A stretch of 64,000 nt of DNA from Planctomycetota bacterium (GTDB lineage: Bacteria; Planctomycetota; Planctomycetia; Pirellulales; Pirellulaceae). Under the pieces are notes generated by a model. The model worked only from the letters and a program-made list of their open reading frames with translations, was not told the origin of the DNA and did not search any database. The stretch's first letter is position 1. The number at the start of each line of letters is the position of its first letter. Position numbers and translations under genes: made by a program. The stretch spans positions 359,788 through 423,787 of the forward strand of contig JAPLNI010000058.1 in the NCBI GenBank assembly GCA_026692865.1, written 5' to 3'. Below are positions 33,619 through 35,754 of the stretch, piece by piece.

Positions 33619-35364
33619 TTAGGAGCAAACGACTCGGACAAGCGTTTCTTGCTCGTCAGTCCAAACGACTTCATTCCAGTCGACCGCAAAATCGGGGTAA
33701 TGGTCGGCAAATTCACGAATTAGGTAGGATCGCTTGATGGCGGGGGAATTGGCGGGAGGCATTCGACAGGCCCGATCCAGGCTGGCTGGACTGACCATTT
33801 GCGGAATGTCAAGAGCACGAACCAGTTGCCTGAAGTAGCCACGGTTATCCAGCTCATGAAACTTGAGATCGATCTTTTTCAGGGCTGCCCACGACGACTT
33901 TGGAGCCGATCGATCCATGAGCCAACGCTTGCTGAACCAATCCACACGCCCAAGTAGCCATTTCTGCGACTGCTCGTCGGAATCGCTTTCTTGCAAATGA
34001 TCCAGCGTTTCTTGCCAAGCCGAAAGAACGCTTCTCGCTTCTTCGATCTTGCTGCTGGCCGTAGATGGTTGCAACTGAGAAATCATCATCCGAACGGCGC
34101 CGGCGTATTGCCTTTGCAGATCAATTGCCGTCCAGACCAAACCCCTTTTGTCCGCCACCGTTCGCAATAAAGAGCTGTCCGTGGCGAAGGATCTCAAGGA
34201 TCGAAGCGGATTTTTCAGGCACGGTAGCCCCGTTAAACGCCCCGATTCCACCAAGTCTAGAACGAGCGTCGTCGTCGCAATCCGGATGTATTGGCTTCGC
34301 TCGTTGGGAGTCGAATCACCGAGAGCGATTTGAATTCGCTGGGTGGCGTGGAGCATGTTACGCCAAGCCTGAAAACTCCACGTTCGATCCGCCAATAAAC
34401 TGGTAAGCCAATGACCCGTGACGAATATAGGAGCCTCGTTCCAGTAGCTTCCAAACCCGATCATCGAATTGATCTTCGATGCTCTCGCGCTCAACCAAAA
34501 CCTACCATGACGATCGACGTGACCGCTCCCCTCGACAGCCGATCTCGAAGCAAAGAATGCTCCAAGCCAACGTCGATGAGGAATCAAAATGGACATCCAA
34601 ATCAAACAGTGAAAATACATTGCAATTGGCCAGTGCAACCATCTTAAACCGGATGCAAGTGTCAGCATCCACGGTTCGGCTTTTGTGTACGGAGCAGGTG
34701 CGGTTGCGGTCGCGTTGGTGTTGATCTCGTTTCCATCGAATCCAATATCTGCCTCAGGCCGAAGTGGTCGAATCATTCGGGACCAGTCTGCGAGCAAGCC
34801 GGTCCAAGCGATGGCAAACATGCGATAGAGCACGAGCATGGGAAGCATTACAAGCAAGCCCACACGCCACATCGCCAACCTCCAGCCCTGCGCGATTCGG
34901 ACCTCGTAGTTCTCGTGCTGGCCATAAGTGACTCCGCCTCCGTCCGAAGAATTCTTGAGCCATCGCGCATCTGTTTGTGGCTGAAGCTCGCTCAAGCTTT
35001 CGACCATCCAACGGTCGAGCACAGTTTGGTAACCGATCAACTCTAGCGGCGAACGGCATTCAGGAGTGGCAACCTCGATTAGTCCGCCGCCGTTGTGATG
35101 AGTCCCATTAGTTTCGACTCCGATGCAAGCACCATTGGCAAGGAAAACTCGGTACATATGCCGGCTCGAAGGTGCCGTCGGCAGTCGCTTCTTAAGCCAT
35201 GGGACGAGCTGATCAAAGATATCAAAGGCTGAGAATGTGCTTGAGGAAGTGCTGGAGCTTGTAGAGCGACCTCGATACAAACCGTACTCGGTTTCGATGC
35301 CTACTAAGCGGGATAGAAGCGAAATACTACTCGCCGACGGCTTCCGCTCGCGAGTTCGCCACAT
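33619..35364 (-). CDS. PafA-family (Pup ligase-like) carboxylate-amine ligase with membrane insert
   Basis: The 581-residue product follows the Pup ligase/deamidase family. It has LVGIETEYGL (GIETEYG at 22-28), FLANGACIGVE with a Glu where PafA has its catalytic Asp, EVATPEC, SSDGGGVTYGQHENY (HENY at 150-153), and ALGDSTPNERSQY. It continues with LDLVESG, DLQRQYAGAV, KKIDLKFHELDNRG, and ends in PPANSPAIKR and DFAVDWNEVVW. Between HENY and the GDS motif an extra segment carries hydrophobic stretches (about 165-190 and 238-262), so part may sit in the membrane. The chosen ATG at 35364 overlaps the 3' end of the preceding small gene by 38 bases; TTG at 35397 is possible. PafA is known to attach Pup via its C-terminal Glu to lysines. 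Confidence 0.82.
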   Translation of the reverse strand: MWRTRERKPSASSISLLSRLVGIETEYGLYRGRSTSSSTSSSTFSAFDIFDQLVPWLKKRLPTAPSSRHMYRVFLANGACIGVETNGTHHNGGGLIEVATPECRSPLELIGYQTVLDRWMVESLSELQPQTDARWLKNSSDGGGVTYGQHENYEVRIAQGWRLAMWRVGLLVMLPMLVLYRMFAIAWTGLLADWSRMIRPLRPEADIGFDGNEINTNATATAPAPYTKAEPWMLTLASGLRWLHWPIAMYFHCLIWMSILIPHRRWLGAFFASRSAVEGSGHVDRHGRFWLSARASKINSMIGFGSYWNEAPIFVTGHWLTSLLADRTWSFQAWRNMLHATQRIQIALGDSTPNERSQYIRIATTTLVLDLVESGRLTGLPCLKNPLRSLRSFATDSSLLRTVADKRGLVWTAIDLQRQYAGAVRMMISQLQPSTASSKIEEARSVLSAWQETLDHLQESDSDEQSQKWLLGRVDWFSKRWLMDRSAPKSSWAALKKIDLKFHELDNRGYFRQLVRALDIPQMVSPASLDRACRMPPANSPAIKRSYLIREFADHYPDFAVDWNEVVWTDEQETLVRVVCS

Positions 35365-35506
35365 ACTCAATCGCTTCTTGACTGCACTCTTCGCCAACGG
35401 ACTTCACAAGCCTTTCTAGGATCGAATCGCGTTCATCGACAACCGCTTGCAATGAGTTGCTAAGGATCTTATTGTCGTCTACCAAATCCCGATTTTTATC
35501 AAACAT
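35327..35506 (-). CDS. Putative Pup-like small modifier ending in Gly-Glu
   Basis: A 59-codon gene (ATG at 35506, TAG at 35327-35329), preceded by GGAG ten bases upstream. The product is charged and mostly helical by composition, has no Trp or Pro, and ends EYVANSRAEAVGE. A C-terminal Gly-Glu is what Pup ligases use, and the gene directly precedes and overlaps a PafA-like gene in another frame, suggesting coupled translation. Similarity to Pup itself is weak: one Gly of the usual GG pair is Val, and there is a longer stretch after the Tyr-Val. Codon use is like that of the neighbours. It could still be an unrelated small protein or an unused frame. Confidence 0.6.
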   Translation of the reverse strand: MFDKNRDLVDDNKILSNSLQAVVDERDSILERLVKSVGEECSQEAIEYVANSRAEAVGE

Positions 35507-35754
35507 AAGCTATCAACTCCGAATTCTAAACGACTGCTACTGAGAATACTAGTTTTTGTTTTGCAATATCACAGATCGCCACAATTGGACCATCTAGCCA
35601 TCGGATGCTGAAATCTTTATTCTCTACGGGTACCAACAGAGTAGTGATGGTACTGGCGATCTTTCAAGTTGTCATTCCAAGTGACGGGATGGACAACATC
35701 ACGGTCGCTTTAAAAAATAGAACTTATTCTTACACACGGGTGCGAAGGCTTACA

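Follow-up and report, generated by a model that had tools for sequence, protein, structure and literature searches.

A predicted two-gene, membrane-anchored pupylation module in a planctomycete family without an evident proteasome

Pupylation is, to our knowledge, known almost only as a tag for the proteasome. A stretch of 64,000 nucleotides from a planctomycete of the family Pirellulaceae (contig JAPLNI010000058.1, positions 359,788 to 423,787; hereafter the window) raises the question of whether a Pup-like modifier and its ligase can form a tagging system of their own. The original prediction, made from the letters alone, was that a short gene with a ribosome site, encoding 59 residues and ending in AVGE, overlaps a PafA-like gene, and that the two could be a divergent or free-standing tagging system. 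The short gene is indeed located at 35327..35506 on the reverse strand (59 codons, ATG start, C-terminus ...SRAEAVGE), and a probable ribosome-binding site, GGAG (35517..35520, reverse strand), lies 10 nt ahead of its ATG, as GGAG likewise does in the sister species. The larger gene occupies 33619..35397 on the same strand and encodes 592 amino acids from a TTG start, with an alternative ATG at 35364. The flanks look like housekeeping genes, which we read from the open reading frames as PPDK downstream of the pair and, on the opposite strand upstream, FabI, RpmE, RF1 and PrmC.

The partner of the short gene was correctly assigned to the PafA family: it is a complete Pup_ligase (PF03136, E 2.3e-64, residues 30-577). 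Its scores lie below the cut-offs of both the PafA equivalog TIGR03686 (133 bits vs 551) and the Dop equivalog TIGR03688 (121 bits vs 492). The AlphaFold (AF2) model, built with 73 sequences, reached a pLDDT of 90 and a pTM of 0.90, and its top Foldseek matches were Dop (9.3e-24) and PafA (3.7e-21). In profile and fold, the enzyme is slightly nearer Dop than PafA. For comparison, relatives were drawn from whole genomes. Of the 241 genomes in the window's family, 120 have a Pup_ligase, and further Pup_ligase genes were found in other families of the phylum. The resulting ligase set drew on 101 fetched regions plus the window and comprised 115 proteins, 86 of which have the same kind of insert as the window ligase; these are called membrane-type here. 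The insert follows the YGQHENY strand (core strand 4) and measures 98-177 aa in all 86 membrane-type ligases, as against 13-23 aa at this point in all 29 others. Two hydrophobic stretches are found within it in 79/86. In the window it is encoded at 34591..34887 (reverse strand), and its hydropathy is compatible with two or four spans, while the model shows two long helices (residues 171-212 and 242-269).

The GIETEY motif of the window ligase (35284..35301, reverse strand) corresponds to the GhExE motif of the ATP/Mg site, and its G33, E35 and E37 are invariant in 86/86 membrane-type enzymes, as are many other core residues. One catalytic position differs. The codon for Glu95 (35113..35115, reverse strand) aligns to the catalytic Asp64 of Corynebacterium glutamicum PafA, and this position is Glu in 85/86 membrane-type ligases vs Asp in 28/29 PafA/Dop-type proteins of other systems. 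We take D94 of Dop to be the same position. Dop D94 has been proposed as the water activator (PMC8599861). The Thr pair in the alpha-loop of PafA and Dop is also absent from the membrane-type ligase. Because Asp is replaced by Glu and the Thr pair is missing, ligase chemistry cannot be assumed. The Asp-to-Glu change and the different alpha-loop could suit another acceptor, and the GS/GCS superfamily also produces gamma-glutamyl small molecules, so the enzyme might add a small amine or amino acid to a short peptide rather than tag proteins. We regard such peptide tailoring as very unlikely, since the PafA/Dop fold extends over the whole length of the enzyme and the short protein is Pup-like in size, helix and GE tail.

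The short protein had been described as helix-prone, and its AlphaFold model contains a helix at residues 5-52 followed by an extended tail of 7 residues (pLDDT 78, pTM 0.40). In tail type and in this model it resembles Pup, being small and helical with an extended tail and a C-terminal Gly-Glu/Gln. Its sequence likeness to Pup is slight, as had been conceded at the outset. The Pfam Pup model (PF05639) matched neither the window protein nor 30 family members, Pfam and NCBIfam scans of the short protein gave no match, and a PDB search with a Pup profile returned nothing relevant. When the profile was built without the window's genus, the short frame ranked top of 1,902 frames of the window, yet weakly (E 0.032), and it did not score at E 0.01 or better when the whole genome of the window was searched with this profile. 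The window's Pup is thus a divergent member, and with a score of this kind its orthology rests on its position, its GE end and its clade. The missing GG pair, also conceded at the outset, is normal for the clade of the window: the tails of linked membrane-type Pups are xGE in 23 cases and GGE in 44. All 81 membrane-type Pups that were read (67 linked and 14 unlinked) end in Glu and never in Gln, in keeping with the lack of a deamidase. Their N-terminus is not conserved.

If the short frame encodes the modifier, it should accompany ligases with the same insert. A short GE-ended frame adjoins the ligase in 67/67 membrane-type loci that have upstream sequence and an unrelocated Pup, against a background of 0.8% (247/30,803) for frames of at least 20 aa ending in GE or GQ in the same loci. 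The positional scan was anchored on the motif and for this reason missed some partners (L057, L122), which were recovered otherwise. The remaining 19 of the 86 membrane-type loci consist of one at a contig end and 18 of one subclade. No conserved small frame was found near the ligase in that subclade, and Pup was therefore searched for genome-wide. A whole-genome profile search detected a single Pup-like frame elsewhere in 14/14 genomes of the subclade's genera, each with the C-terminus R[SC]N[TV]xxDGE. Across the family, with the profile made without the window's genus, Pup was found in 108/120 ligase genomes vs 2/121 others (Fisher p 1e-51, a value that ignores relatedness). Of the two exceptions, one genome is 86% complete and the other has a weak match with an internal stop. 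Conservation of an upstream Gly-Glu frame with same-insert ligases, on which the original prediction depended, therefore holds at all 67 linked loci, and the 14 unlinked genomes keep the Pup elsewhere.

The unlinked Pups (L145-L158) lie beside ribosomal S12/S7 and HisA-like genes in genus g84 and beside different genes in other genomes. No neighbour is widely shared beside them, and no third conserved gene was found near the pair in 43 genus-level groups. A conserved neighbour as a pointer to the targets was accordingly rejected, both for the pair and for the unlinked Pups.

The extent of the overlap depends on the start of the ligase. From the ATG at 35364 it is exactly the 38 nt of the original prediction, whereas from the TTG at 35397 the two genes overlap out of frame by 71 nt (35327..35397, reverse strand). 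In each of the 10 loci that make up the window's ligase clade (three genus codes), a TTG in the ligase frame stands exactly 71 nt ahead of the Pup gene's end; L033 and L091 have no other plausible ligase start. The Pup residues over this TTG vary (V/I, then G/D/E), although the TTG stays. Because the TTG is kept in all ten clade loci, the 71-nt overlap seems more likely than that of 38 nt.

Selection on the short frame has to be read with this overlap in mind. In the last 37 Pup codons, the window differs from its sister species by 3 non-synonymous changes and a single synonymous one; the ligase, by contrast, shows a dS of 0.93 and a dN of 0.044. Within the window's genus, Pup codons 1-22 vary freely. 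The overlap-block DNA is ~97% identical between species vs ~84% for the ligase, and identity is 97-100% over a block that spans approximately positions -120 to -30, counted from the GxETE motif. Since synonymous and non-synonymous sites of the 3' half of Pup are both frozen, dN/dS is uninformative in this genus. The overlap with the ligase partly explains the freezing. As the frozen block begins upstream of the overlap, a ribosome site, codon use or RNA structure may act too. This freezing of both kinds of site is what would be seen if the short frame were no gene and owed its conservation to the ligase N-terminus or to the ligase's ribosome site. Such an explanation can hardly hold. GE ends persist where there is no overlap and where Pup sits elsewhere in the genome, and omega is below 1 in non-overlapping and unlinked Pups; for the family as a whole it is refuted on these grounds. 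Simple pairwise counts on these short genes, made only where dS could be estimated, gave an omega of ~0.09-0.4 over the conserved part of Pup, both for unlinked Pups and for pairs whose genes overlap by 4 nt or not at all (L046/L079, L040/L054). These counts point clearly to codon-level selection on Pup in relatives where the overlap is small or absent. The selection called for by the original prediction is thus found in relatives, while the window's own genus is unreadable in this respect.

The window's Pup and ligase have no proteasome, Dop or Mpa gene beside them, as first noted, and this absence extends to the genome. The window's genome contains a single PF03136 gene, the pup_AAA (Mpa/ARC) model gave no full-length match in it, and its one PF00227 gene encodes a protein of 250 aa, which we take to be Anbu-like. 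A 20S proteasome requires two proteasome-family genes. Across the family, PF00227 amounts to at most one gene per genome, with the exception of three genomes, all without the ligase; no ligase-bearing genome of the family has two.

An alternative reading is a degradation tag, with marked membrane proteins passed to FtsH, HslUV or an Anbu particle. The window's genome has a CDC48-N AAA protein, the Anbu-like gene and AAA+ proteins with N-terminal membrane spans, presumably FtsH-like. Set against this, the single-contig ligase genomes G012, G118 and G063 have no PF00227 gene, and HslV or Anbu is therefore not required; Anbu/HslV as a constant partner is ruled out by these genomes. In mycobacteria the N-terminus of Pup engages the unfoldase, whereas here it is not conserved. 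We consider a degradation tag somewhat unlikely.

We favour, with a probability of roughly 0.75, the reading that the pair is a two-gene, membrane-anchored and proteasome-independent pupylation module without Dop, as predicted from sequence and structural models. Pup would be made already ending in Glu, so that no deamidase would be required. The ligase would be held in the cytoplasmic membrane by its helical insert, with the active site on the cytosolic face. There it would use ATP to phosphorylate the gamma-carboxylate of the last Glu of Pup, and the activated Pup would be joined to lysines of membrane or membrane-near proteins. Synthesis of Pup and ligase may be translationally coupled through the gene overlap. 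With Dop, Mpa and the 20S proteasome missing, the mark would most probably be a stable regulatory or sorting tag; tagged proteins might also be passed to FtsH or another general membrane protease. A divergent or free-standing tagging system, as originally proposed, is supported at the level of the family by the conserved frame and the selection seen in relatives.

A single enzyme might also both add and remove the tag, as a Pup ligase/depupylase of a pre-duplication type. The ligase is single-copy in most genomes, its profile and fold lean slightly to Dop, and single-copy homologues from planctomycetes served Hecht et al. (2020) as the outgroup of PafA and Dop, with a partial alignment of the Dop loop reported. 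In our unrooted quick tree, however, Dop-type, PafA-type and membrane-type ligases form three separate clades, with Dop split from PafA plus membrane-type. The catalytic Asp is altered, and Pups that are never Gln-ended do not need deamidation. A two-way enzyme is therefore unlikely in our view. Within the membrane-type part of the tree, one clade (99% SH-aLRT) unites the unlinked subclade with every xGE tail found in the window's family, and GGE tails surround it. In three genomes, all from a single genus, one pair falls inside this xGE-tail clade and the other among the GGE tails. It is conceivable, as a tentative extension of the module proposed above, that the membrane-type ligases form a class of Pup enzyme of their own, the third after PafA and Dop, which would be marked by the membrane insert and the Glu catalytic residue and would carry out one-way, proteasome-free membrane tagging, and that the GGE and QGE pairs of that genus are separate tags with their own ligases.

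Judged by its sequence, the window pair is of the kind described by Iyer et al. (2008; PMC2588565), who reported Pup genes of Rhodopirellula and Plesiocystis beside a Pup ligase with a transmembrane insert. The Pups there have a G[EQ] tail, the proteasome is not linked, and membrane proteins were suggested as targets; a membrane-protein gene was linked, and Pup always adjoined PafA. The systems agree in that a Pup-like gene of 50-90 aa with a G[EQ] end adjoins the ligase, the insert follows core strand 4 and proteasome genes are unlinked. They differ in three respects. A linked membrane-protein gene was seen in two genomes there, a trait that we do not treat as essential to the kind, and here no neighbour is conserved over 43 genus-level groups; Pup is unlinked in one subclade; and the insert of the window looks more like two long helices than the four clear spans of a 4-TM ligase. 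With actinobacterial PafA and Dop the membrane-type ligases share the fold, the GhExE motif and a single modifier with a C-terminal Glu/Gln, but they have a membrane insert, Glu for the catalytic Asp and Glu-only tails, and occur without Dop, Mpa and the 20S proteasome.

A literature search that took in little subscription material and no preprints returned only Iyer et al. (2008), Hecht et al. (2020) and passing mentions. In the accessible literature we found no description of unlinked Pups, of a long conserved overlap with a TTG start, of two complete pairs in one genus or of a family-wide lack of the proteasome pair. The Asp-to-Glu rule was likewise not found described in the accessible portions, and the supplementary alignments of Iyer et al. 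(2008) may already show Glu. The type of pair predicted in 2008 proves, on comparison of genomes, to occur widely, to be conserved and to differ from the classical system. Roughly half of the species sampled in a single planctomycete family retain it with no evident 20S proteasome, Mpa or Dop, so that a non-degradative role of Pup can be asked about directly. For mechanism and specificity, simple and testable handles exist in the two-pair genus and in the fixed Asp-to-Glu change.

Several further observations were made. In the two-pair genus, each genome has two complete Pup-ligase pairs (L041 and L049 in G007, L074 and L069 in G198, L073 and L072 in G199), one with the tail QGE and the other GGE, and the ligases fall in different clades. 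Pup genes of this genus (g7) have synonymous changes at 1/43 sites (L049 vs L069) and 0/43 sites (L041 vs L074), despite a ligase dS of 0.32 and 0.22, respectively; one of these two near-invariant Pup genes does not overlap its ligase. Tandem two-ligase systems occur in the same phylum (L101-L104; L095, L110, L111, L121-L126). They combine Pup_ligase with a short G[EQ]-ended partner, as here, but, unlike the pair of the window, have two paralogues, no insert, a kept Asp and tails that are mostly Gln. Those of L095, L110, L111 and L121-L126 are perhaps UBact-like; several have an SGQ-ended short partner, and some of the loci belong to the window's family, where one PF00227 gene or none is listed for each such genome. 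The Anbu-like gene, the sole PF00227 gene of the window's genome, is followed by a transglutaminase gene (L028:1492-3105), and at L133:958-2664, in the same genome, one bacterial protein carries CDC48-N and two AAA stretches. Finally, split PF03136 matches in membrane-type ligases of other families (L105, L107-L109, L112 and others) suggest that these carry another insert, ~65 aa long, around profile position 360-368.
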